64,000 nucleotides of DNA from a virus: IMG/VR virus record IMGVR_UViG_3300021138_000002, positions 62,001 to 126,000 of that record; one strand, 5' to 3'. How positions within the stretch are numbered: the stretch's first letter is position 1; every line of letters starts with the position of its first letter. Shown in pieces: positions 10,724 through 62,830 of this stretch. The notes beneath the pieces are model-generated. The model ran no database searches. It was not told the DNA's origin and saw only the letters and a list, made by a program, of their open reading frames with translations. A program made the translations under genes and the position numbers.

Positions 10724-11371
10724 ATGGCTCGATATCTAAAAGAACATCTCAGCTTTACTCAGGCCAACATTGAACTGTTGACTGAGGAAGCTGCTGATGG
10801 ACACGGCAAAACTTTAAAACTCAAAGGAATTTGCATTGAGGGCGGCGTAAGAAACGCCAACGAGCGTGTGTATCCAGTAACCGAAATAGCCAAAGCAGTA
10901 GACACCATCAATGAACAAATCAAGAGTGGTCACAGTGTGTTGGGTGAAGTAGATCATCCAGACGATTTGAAAATCAATCTAGATCGAGTCAGTCACATGA
11001 TTGAACGCATGTGGATGGAAGGTCCTTGCGGATACGGCACATTAAAAATATTACCCACACCCATGGGCGAACTGGTAAAAACCATGTTGACCAACGGTGT
11101 AAAACTAGGTGTTAGCAGTCGTGGATCAGGAAATGTCAACGACGCCAACGGACATGTCAGTGACTTTGAAATCGTCACTGTGGATGTGGTTGCTCAGCCC
11201 AGTGCTCCAAATGCATATCCCACAGCAATATACGAAGGCCTGTTAAATCATGCCGGCGGACAACGCTTGTTGGATATGTTCAAAGACCCGGCTAAAAGCA
11301 ACAAAGCAAAGAGCTATGTACGAGACGAAGTGATTCGCCTTATACGTGGTCTCAAAATAGAAGGGAAATAA
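10724..11371 (+). CDS. 21: Prohead maturation protease gp21
   Basis: A 215-residue serine protease of the T4 gp21 family, which cleaves scaffold, core and capsid proteins after glutamate in (L/I)xE sites. The family motifs are GGVRNANERVYP (residues about 40-51), GEVDHP with the likely catalytic H78, and GVSSRGSG with the catalytic serine S131 or S132, followed by DFEIVTVDVVAQPSAPNAY. It begins 10 nt after the core protein and is followed by gp22 within 5 nt. The likely cleavage targets in this phage are the core, gp22, gp23 and the putative internal proteins at 55133-60044. Confidence 0.93.
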   Translation: MARYLKEHLSFTQANIELLTEEAADGHGKTLKLKGICIEGGVRNANERVYPVTEIAKAVDTINEQIKSGHSVLGEVDHPDDLKINLDRVSHMIERMWMEGPCGYGTLKILPTPMGELVKTMLTNGVKLGVSSRGSGNVNDANGHVSDFEIVTVDVVAQPSAPNAYPTAIYEGLLNHAGGQRLLDMFKDPAKSNKAKSYVRDEVIRLIRGLKIEGK

Positions 11372-11375
11372 TACT

Positions 11376-12461
11376 ATGTTAGATAGTTTAAAACCGTTAC
11401 TAGACAGCGACTTGATCAACGAGGAAGCTCAACAGCAGATCACTGAAGCCTGGGAAGCCAAGCTCAATGAAGCTCGTGAACAAGTGCGTGCAGAACTCCG
11501 CGAAGAGTTTGCACAACGTTTAGAGCATGACAAACAAGTAATGGTGGAAGCCCTGGATCGTATGGTAACAGAAGGTCTACAAGCAGAGATCCAAGCAGTT
11601 CAAGCTGAAAAGCAACAACTTGCTGAAGATCGTGTACGTTTTCAAGCCAAAATGAAAGAAAGTTCCACCAAGTTTAACGACTTTATGGTAACCAAATTGG
11701 CTGAAGAAATCGGCGAACTGCGTAAAGATCGCAAGATGCATACCGAAGGTATTGAGAAGTTAGAAAACTTTGTGGTACATGCACTTGCCAGCGAAATTCG
11801 TGAATTTGCACAAGACAAACAGGACGTGGTTAAAACCAAGGTCCGTTTGGTTCGCGAAGCTCGTCGTCAGTTGGAAACACTCAAAGCACGTTTCGTAACA
11901 GAAAGTGCCAAGAAAATGTCCAACGCTGTTGGCCGTCATCTCAAGGCTGAACTCAATCAGTTGCAGGAAGATATCAAAGTTGCTCGCGAGAACAATTTTG
12001 GTCGTAGAATTTTTGAAGCATACGCAGCAGAATTTGGTGCTACCCATTTAAATGAGAAAGCCGAAGTTCGCAAGTTGCACAGCATTATTGCTCAAAGAGA
12101 AAAACAACTGGGTGAGGCCATCCAACTTTCAGCCAAGGCAAAAACCTTAGTTGAAAGCAAAGAACGCGAAATACGCATAATCAAGGAATCCAATGAACGC
12201 GAAAGCACCATGGACGAATTGCTTGCTCCTTTAAACAAGGAAAAACAAGCACTAATGCGTAATTTGTTGGAAAGTGTACAGACAGCTAGACTGTCCAGTG
12301 CTTTCGAAAAGTATCTACCGGCTGTATTGGCAGACAAATCTGTGAAAGCACCACGAGTGATCACAGAGAACGTTTCCGTTGCAACTGGCGATAAATCTGC
12401 CCGTGTCCAGGAAGAAGATCACAGCAATGTGATTGACCTCAAGCGTCTGGCAGGGCTTTAA
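11376..12461 (+). CDS. 22: Prohead scaffold protein gp22
   Basis: A 361-residue protein, almost entirely helical and charged (E, K, Q, R and A), typical of the T4 major scaffold gp22. The N-terminus MLDSLKPLLDSDLINEEAQQQITEAWEAKL is characteristic. A long coiled coil spans roughly residues 30-280. The tail ends in DHSNVIDLKRLAGL, like gp22 homologues. T4 gp22 is 269 aa. It lies between protease and capsid genes in the canonical order. It would form the core on which gp23 assembles and would then be destroyed by gp21. Confidence 0.9.
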   Translation: MLDSLKPLLDSDLINEEAQQQITEAWEAKLNEAREQVRAELREEFAQRLEHDKQVMVEALDRMVTEGLQAEIQAVQAEKQQLAEDRVRFQAKMKESSTKFNDFMVTKLAEEIGELRKDRKMHTEGIEKLENFVVHALASEIREFAQDKQDVVKTKVRLVREARRQLETLKARFVTESAKKMSNAVGRHLKAELNQLQEDIKVARENNFGRRIFEAYAAEFGATHLNEKAEVRKLHSIIAQREKQLGEAIQLSAKAKTLVESKEREIRIIKESNERESTMDELLAPLNKEKQALMRNLLESVQTARLSSAFEKYLPAVLADKSVKAPRVITENVSVATGDKSARVQEEDHSNVIDLKRLAGL

Positions 12462-12486: not shown

Positions 12487-13683
12487 ATGTCACAAGAATT
12501 ATTAGAAAGTCGTTGGGGAGAAACCAAAGAAGCATTGCTCGAGGGCTTAAATGGCTCAAAACGCAATTCAATGGCAGTTATCCTTGAAAATACCAAAAAG
12601 TACTTGAAAGAGAACGCAACTTCTGGTTCTACTGCAAGCGGCAACATCGCTACCTTGAACAGAGTGATTCTGCCAGTGATACGACGTGTTATGCCAACTG
12701 TTATCGCTAACGAGTTGGTAGGCGTACAGCCAATGACAGGTCCAGTGGGTCAAATCCACACATTGCGTGTAAGATACGCACAGAGCTTGACTGACAACAG
12801 CCAAGCAGCAACTAGTGTAACAGCCGGCCAAGAAGCATTAAGCCCGTTCACTATTGCAACTGCATACTCCACAGTTCCACAAGGTGCTACTACTGCTAGC
12901 GGTTACACTGGCAATAACACAGCTACCATGGAAGGTACTGGCGGTAAGCAGATTAGTGTTCAGATCTTGAAACAGGCTGTTGAAGCTAAGACTCGTAAGT
13001 TACAAGCACGTTGGACTTTTGAATCTGCACAAGACGCACAAGCCATGCATGGTATTGACGTTGAAGCAGAAATCATGGCTGCTCTTGCACAAGAGATCAC
13101 AGCTGAGATCGATCAAGAGATCCTCTTGAGCTTGCAGACTTTGGCTGCAACCGAGTACACATACAACCAAGCTACTGTATCTGGTACTGCTACATTCGTT
13201 GGTGACGAGCACGCTGCTTTGGCTGTTCTTATCAACAGAGTTGCAAACTTGATCGCTCAGCGTACACGTCGTGGTGCTGGTAACTGGTGTGTTGTAAGTC
13301 CAGCAAGTTTAACTGTTTTACAAAGTGCAACAACTAGTGCATTTGCTCGTACAACAGAAGGTACTTTTGAAGCTCCTACAAACACCAAGTTTGTTGGTAC
13401 TTTAAACGGTGCTATGCGTGTGTTTGTAAACAGCTATGCTCAAGACACACAGAGCGTATTGGTAGGTTACAAAGGTACATCAGAAGCTGATGCTGCCGCG
13501 TTCTACTGCCCATACATTCCGTTAATGAGCTCTGGCGTTGTATTAGATCCGTCAACCTTCGAACCAGTCGTATCATTTATGACACGTTATGGCTTCGTAG
13601 AATTAACGAACACTGCCTCGAGTTTCGGGAACGCCGCCGACTACGTGGGGGAGATTGCCGTCCAGAACCTTAGTTTTTCCTAA
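12487..13683 (+). CDS. 23: Major capsid protein gp23
   Basis: A 398-residue HK97-fold capsid protein with a strong AAAAAGGAG Shine-Dalgarno. Family motifs are RVILPVIRRVMPTVIANELVGVQPMTGPVGQI (from about residue 58), the AEIMAALAQEITAEIDQEIL helix, GAGNWCVVSPASLTVLQ, and SYAQDTQSVLVGYKG. It is shorter than T4 gp23 (521 aa). LLE/S (after E7) and LLE/G (after E19) are candidate gp21 cleavage sites in the N-terminal delta region. The last 25 codons use GCC, GGG, GTG, GAG and CAG, unlike the GCT/GCA, GGT, GAA, CAA style of the rest. A strong terminator follows. Confidence 0.95.
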   Translation: MSQELLESRWGETKEALLEGLNGSKRNSMAVILENTKKYLKENATSGSTASGNIATLNRVILPVIRRVMPTVIANELVGVQPMTGPVGQIHTLRVRYAQSLTDNSQAATSVTAGQEALSPFTIATAYSTVPQGATTASGYTGNNTATMEGTGGKQISVQILKQAVEAKTRKLQARWTFESAQDAQAMHGIDVEAEIMAALAQEITAEIDQEILLSLQTLAATEYTYNQATVSGTATFVGDEHAALAVLINRVANLIAQRTRRGAGNWCVVSPASLTVLQSATTSAFARTTEGTFEAPTNTKFVGTLNGAMRVFVNSYAQDTQSVLVGYKGTSEADAAAFYCPYIPLMSSGVVLDPSTFEPVVSFMTRYGFVELTNTASSFGNAADYVGEIAVQNLSFS

Positions 13684-43237: not shown

Positions 43238-44152
43238 GTGACCGACAATCGAATTATAATCCCCAAAGTTGAATTTTATATAACCAATGTTTGTAATCTG
43301 ACCTGTCATAATTGTAATCGTTACAACAATTATGATTTCCGTGGATGGCAACGCTGGAGTGACTATGAAGAAATTTATACCGAATGGGCCAAAAAGATAA
43401 ACATCAAACACATTGTGATCCTGGGCGGAGAACCATTGTTAAATCCCACAATTTGTGAGTGGATTGATGGGATTACCCAATTGTGGGGCCACTCGTGTCA
43501 AATAATAACCAATGGTACATATCTTAACAAAACACCTGGGTTGTACGATCTAGTTAAAAGACACAAGGCCTGGATACAGGTCAGCATACACAATGTCAAC
43601 GATCTAGATCGACATTTTCAAAATATTCGAGAGTTTCTTCAAGAGCCAATTGATTTTTTTCAAGACAAAACACAACTAGATGCGCACGGACACTCGGTTA
43701 CCAACGGATCTGATTATTTGTTTAAAGATCGTAACGGTGCCCAGGTGGCTGCATCTGTACAAGATTCTTTCTATAACATATCCATCTACCCCAACGAACG
43801 CAATCAGCTGACCTTGCACAACAACGATCCTGAACTGGCACATCAAGATTGTGGATTTGTAAAATATAAAAACTATCATTTCATTCGCGGCAAGTTGTAC
43901 AAATGCGGACCAGTGGCATTGTTGCCCGAATTTGATCTGCAATATCCATTGGCCATTTCAGACGCAGATCGACAGCTCTTAAACAGTTATCAACCCTTGG
44001 GCATTGATGAGTTTGAACAACATGGACGAGATTTTTTAAATAACATAGATCGTGTGATACCGCAGTGTAAATTCTGTCCTACCAAATTTGCCAACCAGCA
44101 AATTTTTGCCTTGAACAAAGCCGCAGGGGCCCACAGCTCCTTCAAGAATTAA
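43238..44152 (+). CDS. Radical SAM protein with C-terminal SPASM-like cluster (tandem copy 1)
   Basis: A 304-residue protein with a GTG start. Core motif CNLTCHNC (C19, C23, C26), GGEP at 63-66, then ITNGTYL. The C-terminal part has DCGFVKYKNYHFIRGKLYKCGPVALLPEF and CKFCPTK, which should ligate an auxiliary Fe-S cluster. The segment RGKLYKCGPVAL is shared with the next gene. The protein is about 55% identical by eye to the gene at 44173, so the pair is a tandem duplication. Such enzymes often modify ribosomally made peptides. The substrate is unknown. Confidence 0.88.
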   Translation: MTDNRIIIPKVEFYITNVCNLTCHNCNRYNNYDFRGWQRWSDYEEIYTEWAKKINIKHIVILGGEPLLNPTICEWIDGITQLWGHSCQIITNGTYLNKTPGLYDLVKRHKAWIQVSIHNVNDLDRHFQNIREFLQEPIDFFQDKTQLDAHGHSVTNGSDYLFKDRNGAQVAASVQDSFYNISIYPNERNQLTLHNNDPELAHQDCGFVKYKNYHFIRGKLYKCGPVALLPEFDLQYPLAISDADRQLLNSYQPLGIDEFEQHGRDFLNNIDRVIPQCKFCPTKFANQQIFALNKAAGAHSSFKN

Positions 44153-44172: not shown

Positions 44173-45141
44173 ATGATTGATCCTTTAGTCCAGTGGCCCG
44201 ACGAATCACCCGATGACCCACGATTATACGTTCCAAACATCGAAGTTTACATAACAAATGTTTGTAATATAGCCTGTAAAAATTGCAATCGATTTAACAA
44301 TTACAATTTTAAAGGTCAACAACTATGGAACGACTACCGAGACATTTACACAGCATGGTCTAAAAAAATCCGACTACAGAAAATCACCATCTTGGGCGGC
44401 GAACCGTTGATGAATCCCACAGTGGTAGATTGGATAAGAGGATTCAATCAGCTGTGGGACAAACGTGTGCAACTGCTGACCAACGGCACACGGTTAACCG
44501 TGGTACCAGGATTGTACGAAGTCATGCAGGAATATCGTCGAGATGGTGGTAACTGGATAGGTGTGAGCGTACACAACCCACTGGAACTGGATCGTTACTT
44601 TGAAGAGATACATAAATTTTTAAAAGGTCCTGTCAAAATGTGGAAAGGCAAAGACAGCCTGAATGAGTTTGGCGGCAGTGCCACCTGGGGAGCCGATTAT
44701 GCGTTTGAAGATCGTAACGGAGTACGTGTACATGTGTGGCTGTACGACAGTTTTTACAATGTGGGAATACATCAAAATTTGTCAGGAAACCTGACCTTGT
44801 GCAACAGCGATCCCGAACGGGCACATGACGTTTGTGGCATGGTCAAGTTCAAAAACTATCATTTTGTTCGCGGCAAATTGTACAAATGTGGACCGGTGGC
44901 ATTATTTCCTGAATTTGATCAACAACATGCCCTGGCTATTTCAGATGAGGATCGCCAGTTGCTGAACAGTTATCAACCGTTGTCGGTTGATGAATTTGAC
45001 CAAAGAGGACGAGATTTTTGGAACAATATCGATCGTGTAATACCGCAATGTAAGTTTTGCCCAACAAAATTCATAAATGAACCATTGTTTGCGACCAATA
45101 AAATAAAAGGTTCTACGACTGTATTTAAAATTACACAATAA
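44173..45141 (+). CDS. Radical SAM protein with C-terminal SPASM-like cluster (tandem copy 2)
   Basis: A 322-residue paralogue of the preceding gene. Core CNIACKNC (C31, C35, C38), then ITILGGEPLMNP and LLTNGTRL. The C-terminus again has KFKNYHFVRGKLYKCGPVALFPEF and QCKFCPTKF. Differences cluster in the middle (residues about 120-200: WKGKDSLNEFGGSATWGADYAFEDRNG), which may set substrate specificity. It has its own TAAATA box. The stop overlaps the late promoter of gp13. Confidence 0.88.
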   Translation: MIDPLVQWPDESPDDPRLYVPNIEVYITNVCNIACKNCNRFNNYNFKGQQLWNDYRDIYTAWSKKIRLQKITILGGEPLMNPTVVDWIRGFNQLWDKRVQLLTNGTRLTVVPGLYEVMQEYRRDGGNWIGVSVHNPLELDRYFEEIHKFLKGPVKMWKGKDSLNEFGGSATWGADYAFEDRNGVRVHVWLYDSFYNVGIHQNLSGNLTLCNSDPERAHDVCGMVKFKNYHFVRGKLYKCGPVALFPEFDQQHALAISDEDRQLLNSYQPLSVDEFDQRGRDFWNNIDRVIPQCKFCPTKFINEPLFATNKIKGSTTVFKITQ

Positions 45142-53945: not shown

Positions 53946-54635
53946 ATGACCCATTATCTCTATAAAAAAACTCACAAAGAAACTGGTTTAAAATATTTAG
54001 GAAAAACTATATCAAAAAATCCCTACAACTACAAGGGGTCTGGGGTATATTGGAAATATCATATCAAAAAATATGGATACAATGTAGAAACAGAAATATT
54101 AAAAGAATGTTCAACCGAAGAAGAACTCAAACACTGGGGTCAATATTATAGCAAGTTATGGAACGTTGTTGAAAGTGAAGAATGGGCAAATCTTAAACCC
54201 GAAGAAGGAAGTGGCGGAGGTATGGTAGCAGGATCTGCCTCTGCTCAAAAACATTCGTCTAAAATGATAGGACATCCAAACTGGTTAAAATCTCAATCGG
54301 AATCAGCTAAAAAATTAATCAAAAAAGCTCAACAAGAGCTTATATCTAAATTAACACCCGATGAATTAATTTCTCGTATGAAAAATTCTTGTTGTCGCCC
54401 CGACAGTTATACTCCTGAAAGATCTAAAAAGATTAGCGAGGCATTAACAGGAAGGACTCTTAGCGACGAACATAAAAAAAATGTAAGTATCGGAGGTTCT
54501 AAATACAAAAAATCTCTTACACAAGAAGAAAAAATCATCAAATACGGTCGAGCAAATAATGGAAAAACTTGGAAAATTATCAATGGTAAACGAGTTTGGA
54601 TGGAAAAAGGAGATCCAAAATTACAAAGAAATTAG
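53946..54635 (+). CDS. GIY-YIG homing endonuclease with NUMOD3 repeat
   Basis: A 229-residue protein of the Seg type. The N-terminus HYLYKKTHKETGLKYLGKT holds the YLY...YLG variant of GIY-YIG, followed by NPYNYKGSG (arginine replaced by G-S-G). The C-terminal part has SKKISEALTGRTLSDEHKKNVS, a NUMOD3 DNA-binding repeat, and KTWKIINGKRVWMEKGDPK, as in many HEGs. It has AT-rich codons compared with gp4 and gp16, a sign of separate origin. It is inserted between gp4 and gp16. Its last 16 nt overlap the likely gp16 start. A separate late box precedes it. Confidence 0.88.
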   Translation: MTHYLYKKTHKETGLKYLGKTISKNPYNYKGSGVYWKYHIKKYGYNVETEILKECSTEEELKHWGQYYSKLWNVVESEEWANLKPEEGSGGGMVAGSASAQKHSSKMIGHPNWLKSQSESAKKLIKKAQQELISKLTPDELISRMKNSCCRPDSYTPERSKKISEALTGRTLSDEHKKNVSIGGSKYKKSLTQEEKIIKYGRANNGKTWKIINGKRVWMEKGDPKLQRN

Positions 54636-55111
54636 AAGAATTATTTCAGTTCGATCGACTCGACCCTGTCTCGGAACCTGATGAACCCACACTCTCTGTA
54701 GAACAAACTCGTGCGGCCATCGTGGCCATTGACACAAACATAGACAAAATTGATTTGGCATTGCCGGCCGTGCGTGATCTTGACACCAGCGATCAGGAAC
54801 TGGATGAGCTGGCCGAGTTGGCCAAACAGAGCTATCAGGATCTCAGTGATCTTGGCATGCAAGTAGAATCGAGATTTGCTGCCGAACTGTTTGCAGTGGC
54901 TGGAACCATGCTAGGGCATGCTCTTACAGCCAAGACTACCAAGCTGAACAAACGATTAAAAATGATTGATCTACAGTTGAAAAAAGCTCGTTTGGATCAA
55001 ACAGCCGTCAAGGAAGAACAGTTGCCCACTGCCGAAGGGCAGATCCTGAGCCGCAATGATTTGTTGGAACGCTTGATTGGCAGTAGAGATCAAAAAGACA
55101 AAAGTTCATAA
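54620..55111 (+). CDS. 16: Terminase small subunit gp16
   Basis: A 163-residue homologue of T4 gp16 (164 aa). Family pattern: TKKLEELFQF at the N-terminus, then ALPAVRDLDTSDQELDELAELAKQSYQDLSDLGMQVESRFAAELFAVAGTMLGHALTAKTTKLNKRLKMIDLQLKKARLDQ, and LSRNDLLERLIG at the end. It recognises DNA for packaging and stimulates gp17. The start is unusual. The Shine-Dalgarno AAGGAG (54607-54612) has optimal spacing to an ATT at 54620, exactly where relatives have ATG (M-x-KKLEELF). The only other option is a TTG at 54596. Both codons lie inside the homing endonuclease gene. Confidence 0.85.
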   Translation: MTKKLEELFQFDRLDPVSEPDEPTLSVEQTRAAIVAIDTNIDKIDLALPAVRDLDTSDQELDELAELAKQSYQDLSDLGMQVESRFAAELFAVAGTMLGHALTAKTTKLNKRLKMIDLQLKKARLDQTAVKEEQLPTAEGQILSRNDLLERLIGSRDQKDKSS

Positions 55112-55114
55112 ATA
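55107..55114 (+). promoter_or_regulatory. Late promoter box (CATAAATA) overlapping gp16 stop
   Basis: The gp16 stop TAA (55109-55111) is inside. The next ATG (55133) is 19 nt downstream with AGGG. Confidence 0.6.
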
Positions 55115-55132: not shown

Positions 55133-55741
55133 ATGAAAAAATTTCAAGAATACCTCGCTGAATCAGAAAGAACCTACAATTATCGCATCAAAGTTGTAGG
55201 CGACACTCCTCCAAACTTCATGAAAGACATGGAAGAGAAACTCAAACAATTTGATATTGTCAAAATCTCAGCTCCAAAAACCACACCAGTACAGGCCAAA
55301 CCTGCAGATTTTCCAGCGTTTGACAATGACCGTGTGACACATGTGGATGTGGAATTCCGTTATCCGGCCATCGAACCACAGATCAAACAGATAGCTCAGC
55401 TGTTGATGTTTGATCCCAATCGTATTCGCATGCTCACTACACCATACGAAGACAGCATGGATACCGAGCGTGCCAAGATTGAAGAACAAAACAAAGATTT
55501 ATTAACTGATACCGATTTCCCTGCACCTGACAAGGAACAAAAAGCCTTGTACAAAGACTACAGCACCGAATATAACAACCATGCTGTGCTCAAAAATGCC
55601 TATCGCAGCGACTTCACTGTGGCTGGTGGCAAGACACCAGCGGCCAAAACAACTAACGATCTACCCATGGGCAAGAACAGTCCAATGACCACGATCAAGT
55701 TGCCACCCAAGCCAGCAACTGGCAACCGACCAAGAGGATAA
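55133..55741 (+). CDS. Putative internal head protein with T4-type capsid targeting sequence
   Basis: A 202-residue protein. The first ten residues MKKFQEYLAE are very like the T4 internal protein capsid-targeting peptide MKTYQEFIAE, and E10/S11 (L-A-E/S) fits the gp21 cleavage site. After that comes an alpha/beta domain (TYNYRIKVVGDTPPNFMKDMEEKLKQFDIVKISAP, then RVTHVDVEFRYPAIEPQIKQIAQLL). The C-terminal 70 residues are low-complexity, rich in K, T, P and G. It is likely packaged in the prohead and cut by gp21. Function in the host after injection is unknown. Confidence 0.65.
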   Translation: MKKFQEYLAESERTYNYRIKVVGDTPPNFMKDMEEKLKQFDIVKISAPKTTPVQAKPADFPAFDNDRVTHVDVEFRYPAIEPQIKQIAQLLMFDPNRIRMLTTPYEDSMDTERAKIEEQNKDLLTDTDFPAPDKEQKALYKDYSTEYNNHAVLKNAYRSDFTVAGGKTPAAKTTNDLPMGKNSPMTTIKLPPKPATGNRPRG

Positions 55742-55744
55742 ACC

Positions 55745-57856
55745 ATGGATAACTTTTTTCACAACATAAACAAACGCCTAAACGACATCGACAGTCGTCA
55801 AGATATCGCCGAGAGTGCCGTTAGTGAAATAGCACACGATACTGGCAAAAAGTTGCTGAGCAAAGGCGAACGCAGTGGACTGGCCAAACAGGCTCGTGCT
55901 GGCAAAGACATTGGCAAGCCTGGCAAAATGTTTAAAAAAGTTGCCGGTGATGCCGCCAAGCGTTACGGTAGCAAAGAAGCCGGCGAGCGTGTTGCTGCCG
56001 CGGCCATGTTTAAAAATGCTGCCAAGCACGAAAGTATCAGCAGTACCAGTGGTACCTTGGAAGAAGGACATTGTCCTACCTGTGATTGCTCACCATGCAG
56101 TTGCAACGAAGGCAATGCATTTAGTGGTGCAGTGGCCAAAGCCAAAGCAGATGGCATCCAAAAAGGCGAAAAGATTCGTGTGGGTGGTAAGACATATCCA
56201 GTCAAAGAAGCCGATCCAATGGGCATGGAAGAAGGCGCATTTAAAAATCTTGACATAGAACGTCAAGAACGAGAAATGAAAAAAGCACGTCACAGTTCTT
56301 TAAAACAAGTTCCTGGTGTACAAAATCTCAAGCCTGGTGCCAAAGAGCATCCATTAAAGAATGTGGCCAAAGGTATCAAAGCATTTGTGACCGGCAAAGA
56401 AGAGCCAATGGATGAGGCCAAAGCCAAACCCGATTATATCGATCTAGATCATGATGGTGACAAAAAAGAAACAATGAAAAAAGCTGCCGCTGACAAAAAG
56501 CGTAGCACTGGTACAGCGTTTGATCCAGAAGCCCGTAAACAAATGAAAACCGATCGGGAAGGTACTGGCAACTTTGACAAGAAAAAGATCAGCACCGGTA
56601 CAGTATATACTCGCCGTCACAAAGAAGATGACGACGAAGAAGTTACGAGCGATCAGCCAAAGAAAAAAGGCCGTCCTAAGGGACCAGCCAAAGGCCCTGA
56701 GCGTGTAACAGCCAAGGCTTGGAAGCATAAAGGTGGTCGTACTGTCAAAGAAATGGAAATTCCTCTAATCAATCGTGGCGAATACGATCAAGAAGGCGAC
56801 GAAGTCAAGGGCGACATGCATACCGTGATCCGTCATGCTCAAGAACTTGAAAAGCATTTGAGAGACAGCGAAAACTTGCCGACCTGGATTATCGAAAAAG
56901 TAGGCCAGATCAAAGGCATGATGACCAGCATTAGCGATTACATGTTGTCACAACACGAGCGTAATGCCGAACATGAAACCGGTCAAGAAGGTATCCGTAT
57001 TGCCGAGAAGATTACTAAAAATACACCAACCGGTGAAGTGATACATGATTTTGTACACAGCAAGAATCCCAAGTTTGCTGGCAAGAGCAAAAAAGAACGT
57101 ATCAATCAGGCTTTGGGTGCCAGTTATGGTATGAAGAAAAGCAAGATGGAAGAAGAATCTACAGCTGAAAAAGACGATCGTGCTGAGCATGCTGGCAAGA
57201 AGGTTGCCAAAGACATCGAGTATGATGACAAGAAAGACAAAAATTGGACAGCAGAACGCAAAGCTGCCGCAAAGAAAAAAGGCGAATGGGAGCCAAAAGT
57301 TGACGAAACAACAACTTCCGGCAGTGTAGCACCTGTGGCCAATGCTGCACCCAAGGCCAAAGGCATGTCATTTGGCAAAGGCGTATACGAAGGTGCTATC
57401 GCCGAAAGTTTTGACAAAAAATTATCCAGCGTACTCAACGAAGGTATGAATGTAAGCCTAAACATGAATGCCGAAGGTCAAAAATCAATCAATGTCAGTG
57501 CTGACGGTGATGATGCTGAGAAATTGGCTGAAATCCTAAAGTTAGCTGGCATGGGCGGTCATGCTGGTTGTAGTTCATGTGGTGAGTCACCATGTGGCTG
57601 TGACACTGTTGAAGAAGCTTACGGCGATACTACAGCCAACGAGAATCATCCAGATTGGCCAACCGATACAGAAACTGTAGATGCCGATGATCCACATTTA
57701 CGCAGATTCAGTGGCGGCTTGAATGGTCCTAAATCAACCGGACAGACCACAATCCCAGTCATAGCCGGTCAGCGTCGTAGAATGAGCACCATGGAAGAAA
57801 ACGTTACTCTTGAACGTAGCCTGTTTAAACTATACAAGGATTATAAAGGTCAATGA
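55745..57856 (+). CDS. Large putative head protein with multiple gp21-type cleavage sites and cysteine-rich motifs
   Basis: A 703-residue basic, low-complexity protein (K, E, A, G and D rich). Glutamate sites of the type (L/I/M/V)xE/(A,G,S) lie after E23, E107, E155, E163, E224, E554, E566 and E624. Two cysteine clusters occur: CPTCDCSPCSC (C110-C120) and CSSCGESPCGC (C609-C619). An EF-hand-like DLDHDGD (233-239) could bind calcium. A C-terminal domain (FDKKLSSVLNEGMNVSLNMNAEGQKSINVSADGDDAEKLAEILKLAGM) is conserved in aquatic T4-like phages. It may be a head core or internal protein processed into peptides. No enzymatic motif is seen. Confidence 0.6.
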   Translation: MDNFFHNINKRLNDIDSRQDIAESAVSEIAHDTGKKLLSKGERSGLAKQARAGKDIGKPGKMFKKVAGDAAKRYGSKEAGERVAAAAMFKNAAKHESISSTSGTLEEGHCPTCDCSPCSCNEGNAFSGAVAKAKADGIQKGEKIRVGGKTYPVKEADPMGMEEGAFKNLDIERQEREMKKARHSSLKQVPGVQNLKPGAKEHPLKNVAKGIKAFVTGKEEPMDEAKAKPDYIDLDHDGDKKETMKKAAADKKRSTGTAFDPEARKQMKTDREGTGNFDKKKISTGTVYTRRHKEDDDEEVTSDQPKKKGRPKGPAKGPERVTAKAWKHKGGRTVKEMEIPLINRGEYDQEGDEVKGDMHTVIRHAQELEKHLRDSENLPTWIIEKVGQIKGMMTSISDYMLSQHERNAEHETGQEGIRIAEKITKNTPTGEVIHDFVHSKNPKFAGKSKKERINQALGASYGMKKSKMEEESTAEKDDRAEHAGKKVAKDIEYDDKKDKNWTAERKAAAKKKGEWEPKVDETTTSGSVAPVANAAPKAKGMSFGKGVYEGAIAESFDKKLSSVLNEGMNVSLNMNAEGQKSINVSADGDDAEKLAEILKLAGMGGHAGCSSCGESPCGCDTVEEAYGDTTANENHPDWPTDTETVDADDPHLRRFSGGLNGPKSTGQTTIPVIAGQRRRMSTMEENVTLERSLFKLYKDYKGQ

Positions 57857-58590
57857 AAGCCTTAAGAGATTACATCACCGAAAGTGAACACTGGATGCAC
57901 CATCCGGCCGAGGGCGACGAATTTGCCATTGAGTTGGCCGATGGAACCCTGGTGGAATCTTATATCTTGGAAACAGTGGAAGACTGTATCCTGTTGGATT
58001 CCAACCCAGAGATTGTATCCGTGTTAGAATCCTGGAACCTGCTGAGTGATCAAGAATCCGATGATGCTGTAATACTTGAAACCATGGGCTACGGTACCTT
58101 AGTTGGTGAAAATCGTGGCGGTAATTACGAAGAAATGGGTTACAGAAAATCAACTTCGGACAAATTTGTTTTACTTGATAGATTCCTTGATGCTGTTATA
58201 TTGACTACTAACAGTCTAAGAGAAGCCGAAAAAGAAGCTATAGAATGGGCCGAGCACGACGATATTGAAACTGAAGTTGTTGATCAAAAAACAGGTCAAA
58301 CTATATTTTCAGTTGATGGTGCTGCTGGTGCAGAAGAGCATATGGACGAAGCCAAGTATCATGGTAGAGAAGTGCCGTTAGGCAAACCCATGAAGGGCGA
58401 TGTAAAAAAATCTAAAGTATATGTGAGAGATCCAAAAACCGGCAACATCAAAAAAGTAAACTTTGGCGATCCCAACATGAGAATCAAAAAAAGCAGTCCC
58501 GCACATAGAAAAAGTTTTAGAGCAAGACATCATTGTGAGAATCCCGGATCACGCCTAAAAGCCCGTTACTGGTCATGTCGTGCGTGGTAA
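57853..58590 (+). CDS. Putative internal head protein with CTS-like N-terminus and DUF5872-like C-terminus
   Basis: A 245-residue protein. The N-terminus MKALRDYITE/S fits the capsid-targeting and gp21 site (I-T-E/S). The next 150 residues are acidic and alpha/beta. Then MDE/AKYHGREVPLGKPMKGDVKKSKVYV starts a basic C-terminal domain ending VNFGDPNMRIKKSSPAHRKSFRARHHCENPG and YWSCRAW, the DUF5872 pattern found in phages and large viruses. A second gp21-type site (M-D-E/A) lies exactly at the domain border, so cleavage could free the basic domain. It starts inside the previous gene (4 nt overlap). Confidence 0.65.
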   Translation: MKALRDYITESEHWMHHPAEGDEFAIELADGTLVESYILETVEDCILLDSNPEIVSVLESWNLLSDQESDDAVILETMGYGTLVGENRGGNYEEMGYRKSTSDKFVLLDRFLDAVILTTNSLREAEKEAIEWAEHDDIETEVVDQKTGQTIFSVDGAAGAEEHMDEAKYHGREVPLGKPMKGDVKKSKVYVRDPKTGNIKKVNFGDPNMRIKKSSPAHRKSFRARHHCENPGSRLKARYWSCRAW

Positions 58591-58607
58591 ACAAAGGAAA
58601 ATAAATT

Positions 58608-58901
58608 ATGGCAGAAGCAAACGTAGTTAGCTCGGCAGGTAATATTACCTGGTACACAGACAAGGCCGAAATAGCCGCCTTGGACAACAGCGTGACCTAT
58701 CAGGTCTATGCTACTGCACTGGGTTCTGCTGCCGCAGTCGGCAACATTTACAGTGCTCCTGTAGCCATACCAAACGGTGTTGTAAGACAGATCTACGTTG
58801 GAGCTGGCAACAAACTCACTGTGACCGGTACATTTACTGCCAAAGAACTTGGCACACAAAGTTCAGCACAGCATAGCGTATTCAACTCTTCAGGAGTATA
58901 A
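58608..58901 (+). CDS. Small beta-rich virion protein
   Basis: A 97-residue protein with AAAGGAAA as Shine-Dalgarno. The sequence (NVVSSAGNITWYTDKAEIAALDNSVTYQVYATALGSAAAVGNIY, then YVGAGNKLTVTGTFTAKELG) is a beta-sandwich-like domain typical of decoration or fibre-tip proteins. It has no CTS-like start. It sits in the island of internal proteins and is probably a virion component. No family is recognised. Confidence 0.5.
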   Translation: MAEANVVSSAGNITWYTDKAEIAALDNSVTYQVYATALGSAAAVGNIYSAPVAIPNGVVRQIYVGAGNKLTVTGTFTAKELGTQSSAQHSVFNSSGV

Positions 58902-58903
58902 CC

Positions 58904-59296
58904 GTGCGAGCCCGAGAATTTGTAAGTGAGGCAAGATTCAGTCAACGACCTAAGGCCAAGATGCATCACGACCATGCCCAGGTCCAAAAAGGTGTGCACC
59001 TAGCTCGAGATCCTGGTGGATACGATCGTATCTATCATTTGAATCGTCTCATGATGGCCACAGCCTGTGCCGACGGCAAGGGGACCGGCAAGATACCCAA
59101 TGTTGACAGCAGCAGTTGGTACGAAAAATACAACAGCATACATCCTTATACCGAAGAAGAACACAACATGGTCCGGCAGGCCATGGCCACTGTGCCCACC
59201 GACGGTGGAGAAATTGTCGACGATCATCGCAGTCTTGAACCCGATCATGTGCATCGAATCAGTCCTGTAAAAGGATTTCAGGGCTATCCCAGATGA
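58904..59296 (+). CDS. MRAREFV-family putative internal head protein (copy 1)
   Basis: A 130-residue protein, GTG start with CAGGAG. It starts MRAREFVSE/A, with a capsid-targeting-like decapeptide and V-S-E/A cleavage site. The centre is rich in H, D and R (KMHHDHAQVQKGVHLARDPGGYDRIYHLNRLMMATACADGKG). It ends in HRISPVKGFQGYPR. The two following genes share the same N-terminal peptide and the SP...F.GY.R end. The three genes overlap by 4 nt (ATGA), so they are one translational unit. Function is unknown. Confidence 0.65.
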   Translation: MRAREFVSEARFSQRPKAKMHHDHAQVQKGVHLARDPGGYDRIYHLNRLMMATACADGKGTGKIPNVDSSSWYEKYNSIHPYTEEEHNMVRQAMATVPTDGGEIVDDHRSLEPDHVHRISPVKGFQGYPR

Positions 59297-59661
59297 GAGC
59301 TCGCGAGTTCGTGATCGAAGGGCGACGAAGCAAGATAGATCACAGCTTCCAACACGCCAATCCTGGTGCCGTTATTCCCGGCAATCGAGACAGATTCTAT
59401 GATGGACGCACTTACGATAGTTATCGTATGGCCATGTTGAGCGGTATGCACCCAGATGATCTAGAAAAAGCCGATGTGCATTCCTGGGCCTCAAACATGC
59501 CCATGTACAATGCCTACACCCAAGCCGAACACGATAAAATTACTAGAGCCATGAAAAAAATGGGACACACTGTAAAACACATGGCCTATCAAGGTAGTCA
59601 AGAGCCACCAGACACACACAGGGTTAGCCCAGTAAACCAATTTACAGGATACAGTCGATGA
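59293..59661 (+). CDS. MRAREFV-family putative internal head protein (copy 2)
   Basis: A 122-residue paralogue. Start MRAREFVIE/G, then RRSKIDHSFQHANPGAVIPGNRDRFYDGRTYDSYRMAMLSG, ending RVSPVNQFTGYSR. YDSYRMAMLSG and the preceding gene's YDRIYHLNRLMMA are equivalent. ATG overlaps the previous stop. It is probably packaged into the head. No enzymatic motif. Confidence 0.65.
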   Translation: MRAREFVIEGRRSKIDHSFQHANPGAVIPGNRDRFYDGRTYDSYRMAMLSGMHPDDLEKADVHSWASNMPMYNAYTQAEHDKITRAMKKMGHTVKHMAYQGSQEPPDTHRVSPVNQFTGYSR

Positions 59662-60044
59662 GAGCTCGAGAATTTGTTACCGAAGGTCAACAAACACGTC
59701 TGCCGGCCTATACTAGAGATCCGCTGGAGCATGCTTATTTTTTACCAGGCATCCGTAACAACGACAGTTATCGTACCTACAGATTGGGCGCGGCCATAGC
59801 TCGAGCTCGGGCTGAAAAAGATGGCGGTGCTGATAATTTTCCAGAATGGCACCCTGAAAGTGCTTTTGGCGAAAATTCGGTAGTAATAGGTCCTGAAGTA
59901 GATGTCAAAGATATTGTGACCCGTGCATTAGAAATGACCGGATATGGTGGAGGCCTGGCCAGTGTGGGAAGCCACAAGAGCCACGAACCCGAAAGCGTAA
60001 ATCAAACCAGTCCTATGCGACCATTCAAAGGATATGCAAGATAA
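59658..60044 (+). CDS. MRAREFV-family putative internal head protein (copy 3)
   Basis: A 128-residue paralogue. Start MRAREFVTE/G, then RDPLEHAYFLPGIRNNDSYRTYRLGAAIARARAEKDGG, ending NQTSPMRPFKGYAR. The centre (NSVVIGPEVDVKDIVTRALEMTGYGGG) is more alpha/beta than in its paralogues. Start and stop overlap with its neighbours. Its stop (TAA) overlaps the ATG of the Ntn-hydrolase gene by one base, so the hydrolase is in the same unit. Confidence 0.65.
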   Translation: MRAREFVTEGQQTRLPAYTRDPLEHAYFLPGIRNNDSYRTYRLGAAIARARAEKDGGADNFPEWHPESAFGENSVVIGPEVDVKDIVTRALEMTGYGGGLASVGSHKSHEPESVNQTSPMRPFKGYAR

Positions 60045-60947: not shown

Positions 60948-61661
60948 ATGAAAAAAATTATCGTATTAGCCGCACTGCTGTTTGCATCAGTTGCAGCACA
61001 GGCACAAATCAATGCCCAGTGCCCACAGTTTACTGTGAACGGCACACCACAATATCAAGCTCACCCAGGTGATCAAGAACTTTGTAAAACCAACTATGCT
61101 GTGATACATCGTTGTGATGTCAAGGCACCTGTGGCCGTATTTGAACACCTGACTGTGGCCGCTATGTCAGGTCCGGCCAAACGCAAAGACAACTTCAGAC
61201 CCGATCCCGGTGTGGCTGCACAGTGCCAGGCACAGTTGGCCGACTATGCCACGGCCGGCAACATCTACGATCGCGGACACATGGCTCCAGCTGGCAACAA
61301 CACACAGAACGATGCCATCATGAGCGAAAGTTTTTTCCTGTCAAACATGGTACCACAAGTGGCCAACAACAACAGAGGTATCTGGAAACAGTTGGAAACT
61401 TGGGAACGTGATTGGGCCAGCAAGGGCGGCGATTTTTATATCATTTCGGGCGGCATTTACAACCCTGGACACAAAACCATCGGTAACGGTGTAGGAGTTC
61501 CTGATGCACTCTACAAGATCATCATCAACAAACAGTCTGGACAAGTGATGGCCTATATGATGCCTAATACTGCACTGCCAGTAGCAGATTTGCCCAAGTA
61601 TCAAACCACTATGACTGCTGTAGAACAAGCCACCGGCATGCGTTTTAATTTAGGCAAGTAA
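60948..61661 (+). CDS. Secreted DNA/RNA non-specific endonuclease
   Basis: A 237-residue protein with an AAAAAGGA Shine-Dalgarno. It starts with a clear signal peptide (MKKIIVLAALLFASVAAQAQ, likely cut after AQA). The catalytic motif DRGH (residues 108-111) is followed by MAPAGNNTQNDAIMSESFFLSNMVPQVANNNRGIWKQLE, with the metal-binding Asn and Glu of the NUC1/Serratia nuclease family. Cysteines C25, C46, C56 and C93 may form disulfides in the periplasm. It would degrade DNA or RNA outside the cytoplasm. Confidence 0.9.
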   Translation: MKKIIVLAALLFASVAAQAQINAQCPQFTVNGTPQYQAHPGDQELCKTNYAVIHRCDVKAPVAVFEHLTVAAMSGPAKRKDNFRPDPGVAAQCQAQLADYATAGNIYDRGHMAPAGNNTQNDAIMSESFFLSNMVPQVANNNRGIWKQLETWERDWASKGGDFYIISGGIYNPGHKTIGNGVGVPDALYKIIINKQSGQVMAYMMPNTALPVADLPKYQTTMTAVEQATGMRFNLGK

Positions 61662-61684: not shown

Positions 61685-62830
61685 ATGAATAAAACCTATT
61701 GTGCGGCCCCCTGGCGGGGCTTGCACATCAACCCACGTGGAGATGTCAAAACTTGCTGTGCTGGCAACCCTAACATGCTGGGCAATCTCAACAATCTGAC
61801 CATTGAACAAATCTTGAATGGACCTGTGTTGCGTGAAATACAGGACACTGTGCGTCTGGGTCAATTACATGATCAATATTGTAAAAACTGTATCAATAGA
61901 GAAACCGCTGGCGGCGATAGCGAACGAGTTTGGCACAACACAGTCAATGACAATTTCGCTATTGAGTCTGCTGGAGATTTTGAATTTCCTTCTATCATAG
62001 ACATACGTTGGAACACCACTTGCAATTTGAGTTGTAACTATTGCGATCCTAATGCCAGCTCAAAATGGGCCGGTATATTAAAGCAACCGGTAGTATCGGG
62101 CACTCGACACTACTATGAACAGGTGTGCAACTACATCAAAAAACACTACAATCAAGTACAAGAAGTTGCCTTGGTTGGCGGCGAACCTTTGTTGTTGAAA
62201 GAAAATGAACGTTTGCTAGATGTGATTCCTGACGATTGCGTGGTCACTATTATTACCAACCTTGCCGCAGATTTGGAAAATAACGCTGTGTTCCAAAAAC
62301 TGGCCAAGCGATCCAGAGTAGGATGGAGTATCAGTTTTGAAAATGTTCAAGATCGATTTGAATATGTGCGTTATGGAGCCACATGGCAAAAGCTACTGCA
62401 CAATCTTGATCTAGTGCAGGATCTCATGCGTAATCAAGGACATTGGGGAGGCATACACGCGGTCTACAACTTGTTTACTGCCACAAGGTTGCGTGAAATC
62501 AAAAACTTTAGTCAAGAACGTGGACTAACAATTAAATGGCAAAGTTTACATCATCCGAGCCTGCTAGATCCACGATCATACGGATCAGAAATAGCCGAGT
62601 TGGCCGCAAATGAAATCAAACTCATGTATGAAACCTGTCAAGTTGACGCACTGGATCAACAGTTCTTTGACACAGCCTTGACACATTATCAAAATCAAAC
62701 CCAGACCAATCCAGCAACTCTGGAACAACTGGACCAATACATACAGAGATTGGAATCTGAATATCATCCTGATCAAGCCGGGCAATTTGCCGTGTGCTGG
62801 CCCGAACTAGAAAGTTTATTATGGCACTAG
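61685..62830 (+). CDS. Radical SAM protein with N-terminal twitch/SPASM-like domain
   Basis: A 381-residue protein. The N-terminal cysteines (C6 in YCAAPW, C24 and C25 in KTCCAGN, C66 and C69 in YCKNC) form the twitch-type auxiliary cluster. The core is CNLSCNYC (C113, C117, C120), then LVGGEPLL and IITNLAADL. The architecture matches the gene at 485 (about 30% identity by eye in the N-terminal half). The enzyme class includes peptide and glycan modifying enzymes. It overlaps gp17 by 10 nt, so expression is tied to packaging genes. Confidence 0.88.
   Translation: MNKTYCAAPWRGLHINPRGDVKTCCAGNPNMLGNLNNLTIEQILNGPVLREIQDTVRLGQLHDQYCKNCINRETAGGDSERVWHNTVNDNFAIESAGDFEFPSIIDIRWNTTCNLSCNYCDPNASSKWAGILKQPVVSGTRHYYEQVCNYIKKHYNQVQEVALVGGEPLLLKENERLLDVIPDDCVVTIITNLAADLENNAVFQKLAKRSRVGWSISFENVQDRFEYVRYGATWQKLLHNLDLVQDLMRNQGHWGGIHAVYNLFTATRLREIKNFSQERGLTIKWQSLHHPSLLDPRSYGSEIAELAANEIKLMYETCQVDALDQQFFDTALTHYQNQTQTNPATLEQLDQYIQRLESEYHPDQAGQFAVCWPELESLLWH

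Follow-up and report, generated by a model that had tools for sequence, protein, structure and literature searches.

In bacteriophage T4 the internal proteins (IPs) IPI, IPII and IPIII and the protein Alt carry at their N-terminus a capsid targeting sequence (CTS) that directs them to the prohead core, and they are cut by the prohead protease gp21. Mutagenesis of IPIII has indicated that targeting depends mainly on residues 4 and 7 of this peptide and processing on residues 8 and 10 (PMC9026906). Here we describe a comparable situation in a T4-type virus, IMG/VR record IMGVR_UViG_3300021138_000002 (145,096 b), of which bases 62001–126000, a stretch of 64,000 nucleotides, are referred to as the window. 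One block of eight genes (window 55133–60044) contains five that start with a peptide of this kind, from here on a tag. The block probably represents a late operon for internal head proteins, which would be directed to the prohead core and cleaved by gp21 in the way known for the T4 IPs and Alt. Genes without a standard name are identified by their first position in the window, and the coordinates of all features are collected in Table 1.

The five N-termini, which a first-pass annotation of the window had already pointed out, are all present: MKKFQEYLAE↓S in 55133, MKALRDYITE↓S in 57853, MRAREFVSE↓A in 58904, MRAREFVIE↓G in 59293 and MRAREFVTE↓G in 59658 (arrows mark predicted cuts). The island of tagged genes described at that time is, however, tagged only in part, since 55745 (703 aa) and 58608 (97 aa) belong to the block and have no tag. 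A loose form of the tag, (F/Y)(L/I/V)xE at the true start, was found in just five of the 137 open reading frames (ORFs) of the whole record, the sole extra match being at an internal methionine, and the chance of all five landing in the eight-gene block is 1.5e-7. The strict pattern with T4 geometry, M[KR]x[FYLI]xx[FYL][ILVF]xE, matched 55133 and 57853 in this genome and none of its 704 internal methionines. Used on T4 as a control, it retrieved IPII and IPIII only; three phages without gp21 gave no match, and all the internal methionines of ten genomes gave one. A chance origin of the tags can be ruled out by their start-only, clustered occurrence and by the internal methionine control.

Relatives were collected from two kinds of locus, those anchored on gp17 and those with the domain of 57853. 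Among 52 distinct homologues of 55133, residues M1, K2, F4, Y7, L8 and E10 of the decapeptide were conserved while positions 3, 5, 6 and 9 were variable. Since F4, Y7, L8 and E10 correspond to residues 4, 7, 8 and 10 of IPIII, the tag matches the T4 CTS position by position. The tag of 57853 has L4 and Y7 at the targeting positions and I8 and E10 at the processing ones. The (L/I/V)xE site on which the earlier claim of T4-like capsid targeting and gp21 peptides depended is therefore conserved in the homologues, at L8 and E10 in the 55133 family and at E9 in 145 of 151 genes (unfiltered) of the MRAREFV family. The claim is also well supported by the co-occurrence with gp21, the gp23 site and the virion proteomics of relatives presented below. 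In Atu_ph07 (L171:7001-7756) the start annotated for AUZ94910 (7088) lies too far inside the gene, and an in-frame ATG located 87 bases upstream restores the tag as MKTLQDYLTES.

The MRAREFV proteins carry a shorter version, in which EF(I/V/L)xE fits the T4 EFIAE one register shifted and Ala3 takes the place of Tyr4. Position 7 is I, V or L over the whole family and V in the three proteins of the window, i.e., the glutamate site previously assigned to the trio holds at E9, but its P3 residue is not the T4-type I or L. Column entropy was low up to residue 9 and rose at once afterwards, in an alignment that had been filtered on residues 2, 5 and 6, so that these columns are not independent evidence. 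As already noticed from the window alone, the MRAREFV genes are alike only at their ends: over 64 paralogue pairs within family loci, the tag had an identity of 0.77 and the last 12 residues one of 0.71, against 0.26 for the body. All five distinct members lacking E9 carried a new [LIVM]xE within residues 10–20, found in 5 of 107 members with E9; the new (L/I)xE sites are MRAREFVSAKITE↓T, MRAREFVSAVLSE↓T, MRAREFVRRNLKE↓E and two more. A displaced cut site is likewise found in T4 IPI, where MKTFKEF is followed by ITE↓A at residue 19.

A second predicted cut site was detected in 57853, at the border of its C-terminal domain. This domain occurs in hundreds of viral contigs, and in the complete genomes of the pelagiphages Kolga and HTVC202P and the roseophage CRP-901, all without gp21, it stands alone as a protein beginning with M-AKY or M-ATY. 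Of the 79 N-terminally extended versions, 72 had L, V, M or I at P3 and the other 7 had T, and the residue after xxE was A in 77, S in one and G in one. The precursor junction coincides with the start of the stand-alone protein, because xxE↓(A/S/G) falls where M-AKY or M-ATY begins, and a gp21 cut at the junction would yield the same mature N-terminus as the removal of Met from the stand-alone form. One retrieval pattern (EEHMDEAK) spanned the E↓A junction; the listed homologues, with the exception of the window, differ before it and were presumably retrieved by other patterns.

Both gp21 and gp23 are encoded in the record. The predicted maturation site of gp23, KKYLKE42↓N43 (KKYLKE↓NA), is found at the place of the T4 gp23 cut FLTE↓A, and the site type is kept in relatives (KKYL(K/R)E↓NA in the near ones, RFLVE↓NA in PA5oct, GFLTE↓T in C48C1 and SFLTE↓A in T4). 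The form (F/Y)(L/I/V)xE is thus common to the N-terminal tags and to the gp23 site of the same record. Among relatives, gp21 was found in 13 of 14 gp23-positive records. Some records (L057, L082 and L145, for example) have tags and no gp21 match, but gp23 is also missing there, so that these records are more likely fragments in which the head module is not included than exceptions. The untagged 703-aa protein contained 10 [LIVM]xE[AGSN] sites against 3.1 expected (p=0.001) and the gp22-like scaffold 13 against 2.8 (p<0.0005); the tail proteins (gp18, tube) showed no such enrichment. As for expression, the sequence CATAAATA found before 55133 is of the T4 late promoter type, which would give the block the late expression of the T4 internal head proteins. 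There are 14 [TC]ATAAATA sites in the record, and others stand before the gp20, gp18 and gp19 genes.

The virion data come from relatives (PA5oct, S-CREM2 and S-SM1) and refer to whole virions rather than heads. In PA5oct, the 55133 homologue EST35_0202 and the product of the next gene, which corresponds to the 703-aa gene by synteny, are recorded as virion proteins by electrospray ionization tandem mass spectrometry (MS). Two further MS-positive proteins have starts of the tag type (MKINDIITE↓G and MKIKDILVE↓S). The virion proteome of the cyanophage S-CREM2 includes six “non-structural” proteins, for which the authors left carry-over as a possibility (PMC10665884). Only four ORFs of S-CREM2 match the strict pattern, an S-adenosylmethionine (SAM) hydrolase (MKDFDSFLEE), a kinase (MKRFDAFLTE), a cytidylyltransferase (MKNFSSFLTE) and the small ORF13 (MKDLHSFLTE), and all four are in the published MS list (p=0.0017). 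ORF12, a nuclease annotated as Cas9, has FASFMAE↓A within its first 25 residues. The SAM hydrolase, the Cas9-annotated nuclease, ORF13 and the kinase, all virion proteins with a tag or a tag-like sequence, are encoded in one small cluster (OR473000, 3837–13331, L256) that looks like an encapsidated anti-defense or host-takeover cassette. The cytidylyltransferase of S-SM1 is a virion protein (PMC3037559) and starts MKKFSAFLNE↓A. All these cyanophages (S-CREM2, S-SM1 and Syn9) encode gp21. Phage C48C1 has, at 57.3–68.4 kb (L182:287-11408), its own block with about six tagged genes, including those of a DUF6267 protein, a cytidylyltransferase and the protein with the basic C-domain. The DNA end protector gp2 of T4 (L212 16061-16885) starts MAIFQIINES, with a tag-like (I)xE that is possibly a coincidence.

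The bodies behind the tags showed no homology to those of the T4 IPs or Alt. Pfam gave nothing above the cut-off for the genes of the block, and neither Pfam nor PHROG matched its proteins to the IPI, IPII, IPIII or Alt families; for this reason we assign them, by sequence, to the T4 signal class and not to the IP or Alt protein families. The structure model of 57853 was poor (predicted local distance difference test, pLDDT, 57). The better model of the third MRAREFV protein had no match among PDB or viral structures (best E 2.9 and 0.91), and neither the structure models nor the profile searches yielded a fold or an effector activity for the MRAREFV proteins. Profile searches against solved structures gave weak matches only, which were not trusted (best E 0.017, a putative S-layer protein).

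Several observations weigh against a block of gp21-cut internal head proteins. Unlike the T4 IPs, the tagged proteins are not uniformly basic, their isoelectric points (pI) going from 5.1 to 9.3 (9.3 for 59293, 6.5 for 59658 and 5.1 for whole 57853). E10 is missing from the homologues of 55133 in PA5oct (MKSFRDYYDA) and Phosso (MKNFYEYLSS), which keep the targeting residues, so that cleavage is less certain in this family than in the other two, and the PA5oct protein is present in virions with no obvious cut site there. The conservation of 55133 also extends beyond E10. The junction, as E↓A or E↓S, is present in HTVC008M and Melnitz-3, yet the N-terminal tag of their 57853-type gene is degenerate, and the tag is therefore not universal among gp21 phages. 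The MRAREFV family was not found in any named phage. Detection by MS can mean carry-over, as the S-CREM2 authors themselves say (PMC10665884). Finally, the strict pattern, the positions of which derive from the T4 work, was put into its final form when the S-CREM2 matches were already known from a looser scan.

The most serious alternative, to which we would give somewhat less than an even chance, is that the tags are genuine and cleaved, yet belong to core or assembly factors comparable to T4 gp22, gp67, gp68 and IPIII, which have no function once injection has taken place; “effector”, as suggested in the first-pass annotation, would then be the wrong word. It would explain well that 55133 and the 703-aa gene are conserved beside gp17 even in PA5oct, where their products are virion proteins (a conservation sufficient for a core or assembly role), and that cut-type sites are over-represented in the 703-aa protein as in gp22; T4 IPIII, moreover, influences head assembly (PMC9026906). 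It does not account equally well for the MRAREFV bodies, whose strong divergence between paralogues of one locus is what would be expected of host-facing cargo, as is their copy number of one to four per locus, nor for the enzymes among the tagged proteins of relatives (SAM hydrolase, kinase, cytidylyltransferase and nucleotidase).

Another reading is that neck or head structural proteins which are not cut simply begin with a conserved helix, in which the glutamate has a structural role. The 55133 homologues without E10 and the conservation of this protein past E10 would agree with this, but the shifting of the site in E9-less MRAREFV members, the xxE↓(A/S/G) junction at the start of the stand-alone homologues and the same peptide on unrelated bodies would all be left unexplained, and we consider it improbable. 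Least credible of all is that recent duplication or a constraint on mRNA translation produced the shared starts. The three MRAREFV genes are indeed tandem paralogues with overlapping stop and start codons, but every one of the codons for their shared residues 2–7 and 9 shows a synonymous difference in one copy or more, and the same peptide type is found on unrelated bodies in other phages.

For a late operon of internal head proteins, we infer the following course of targeting, cleavage and delivery in this phage. Late in infection, the tagged precursors would bind the prohead core by their N-terminal helix of 9–10 residues and become enclosed, and once the shell is complete gp21 would cut them after the glutamate. 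A further cut of 57853 at MDE↓A would release the very basic domain of 79 residues, which would likely remain associated with the packaged DNA. In view of its many (L/I/V/M)xE(A/G/S/N) sites, the 703-aa protein would probably be cut into pieces, as gp22 is. As for the three MRAREFV proteins, they would be variable cargo that may enter the host with the DNA, by analogy to T4 IPI and Alt; being the least conserved and varying in copy number, they fit host-facing cargo.

For T4-like phages at large (freshwater, marine, cyanophages and jumbo phages), we see about even chances for a wider version, in which one interchangeable address peptide cut by gp21 loads a fast-changing, host-facing payload into the head, and gp21 also frees an embedded basic domain. 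The payload would comprise the cyanophage SAM hydrolase, kinases, nucleotidyltransferases and Cas9-annotated nuclease, together with the MRAREFV proteins of this phage. If this is true, a short sequence rule predicts the head-carried proteins of T4-like phages, including anti-defense and metabolic enzymes that act before phage gene expression. It would provide a specific route for the enzymes found unexplained in cyanophage virions, where the S-CREM2 authors left carry-over open, and define gp21 substrates beyond T4.

Regarding the surroundings, the block had been placed between gp16 and gp17. The second of these is indeed downstream, starting at 62794, but three untagged genes (60044, 60948 and 61685) intervene, and gp16 is assigned only by its position and its PA5oct homologue. 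This homologue starts MTKRLEEVF, and here ITKKLEELF comes after AAAAGGAG and an ATT codon, so that there are two candidate starts and the gene may begin at the ATT or at TTG 54596. A homing-endonuclease-like ORF (53946–54640) adjoins it. Gene 60044 had an AAT-like Pfam match below the cut-off (E 0.012). Shortly before gp17 there is a DNA/RNA non-specific endonuclease (60948–61661; PF01223, E=5e-41; phrog_14168) with a signal-peptide-like start. Four radical SAM proteins (485–1798, 43238–44152, 44173–45141 and 61685–62830), two of them with SPASM domains, were found in this T4-like phage.

Table 1. Position in the window of the tagged block, its predicted sites and the related head genes.
Feature	Position	Strand	Evidence or remark
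gp21-type prohead protease (Peptidase_S77)	10724..11371	+	PF03420 E=8e-24
gp22-like scaffold	11376..12461	+	Position between gp21 and gp23; [LIVM]xE[AGSN] site enrichment
gp23-type major capsid protein	12487..13683	+	Aligns to gp23 of T4-like records
Gene in gp16 position	54596..55111	+	phrog_16202 1e-13; synteny; homologue of PA5oct EST35_0201
T4-type late promoter-like CATAAATA	55107..55114	+	18 nt upstream of first tagged gene (55133)
202-aa protein, virion-protein family phrog_14802	55133..55741	+	PA5oct homologue EST35_0202
Predicted targeting/cleavage peptide MKKFQEYLAE	55133..55162	+	F4 49/52, Y7 51/52, L8 50/52, E10 50/52
703-aa low-complexity protein, untagged; scaffold- or core-like	55745..57856	+	Internal cut-type sites; PA5oct counterpart MS-marked
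245-aa protein: tag, small N-domain, variable linker, conserved C-domain	57853..58590	+	
Predicted targeting/cleavage peptide MKALRDYITE	57853..57882	+	Y7 and E10 invariant, 25/25
Second predicted cut site MDE166↓A167	58342..58353	+	xxE↓(A/S/G) in 79/79 extended homologues
C-terminal domain predicted freed by cut (phrog_7595)	58351..58587	+	79 aa, 9.2 kDa, pI 10.7
Untagged 97-aa protein within block	58608..58901	+	Conserved in 64 loci
MRAREFV protein 1 (MRAREFVSE↓A)	58904..59296	+	GTG start
MRAREFV protein 2 (MRAREFVIE↓G)	59293..59661	+	
MRAREFV protein 3 (MRAREFVTE↓G)	59658..60044	+	AlphaFold model pLDDT 86.5, no known relative

A search of the literature pairing “capsid targeting sequence” with “phage” gave none on these phages, judging by title, and the start peptide is not described in the literature examined on cyanophage virion enzymes. 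The mechanism is known, and what is new is the protein set and some of its features: against the literature searched, novelty lies in the protein families themselves, in the nine-residue form of the tag (MRAREFV), in a second site whose cleavage would free a domain and in the match of the tag to the unexplained cyanophage virion enzymes. The phages phiKZ and SPN3US resemble the system proposed here in that N-terminal propeptides are removed by the prohead protease at xxE and the cargo is internal and ejected; they have a different protease lineage and longer propeptides. A further difference is that the SPN3US protease prefers AxE (PMC10052503). Closer are the virion enzymes of S-CREM2, S-SM1 and Syn9 (cytidylyltransferase, SAM hydrolase and APH/ChoK-like kinase), which have the same start peptide in phages encoding gp21, but are recognizable enzymes with bodies unrelated to the proteins found here. 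The closest likeness is to the T4 CTS of IPI, IPII, IPIII and Alt, i.e., 9–10 N-terminal residues with an aromatic or hydrophobic residue at 4 and 7, an aliphatic one at 8 and Glu at 10, on small late proteins of a gp21-encoding genome and common to unrelated bodies. The differences are that the bodies are unrelated to the IPs or Alt by any search made, that MRAREFV is a nine-residue form with Ala instead of the first aromatic residue and, in many cases, Val at P3, that 57853 has a second, internal predicted site that would free a domain, and that the genes are located upstream of gp17.

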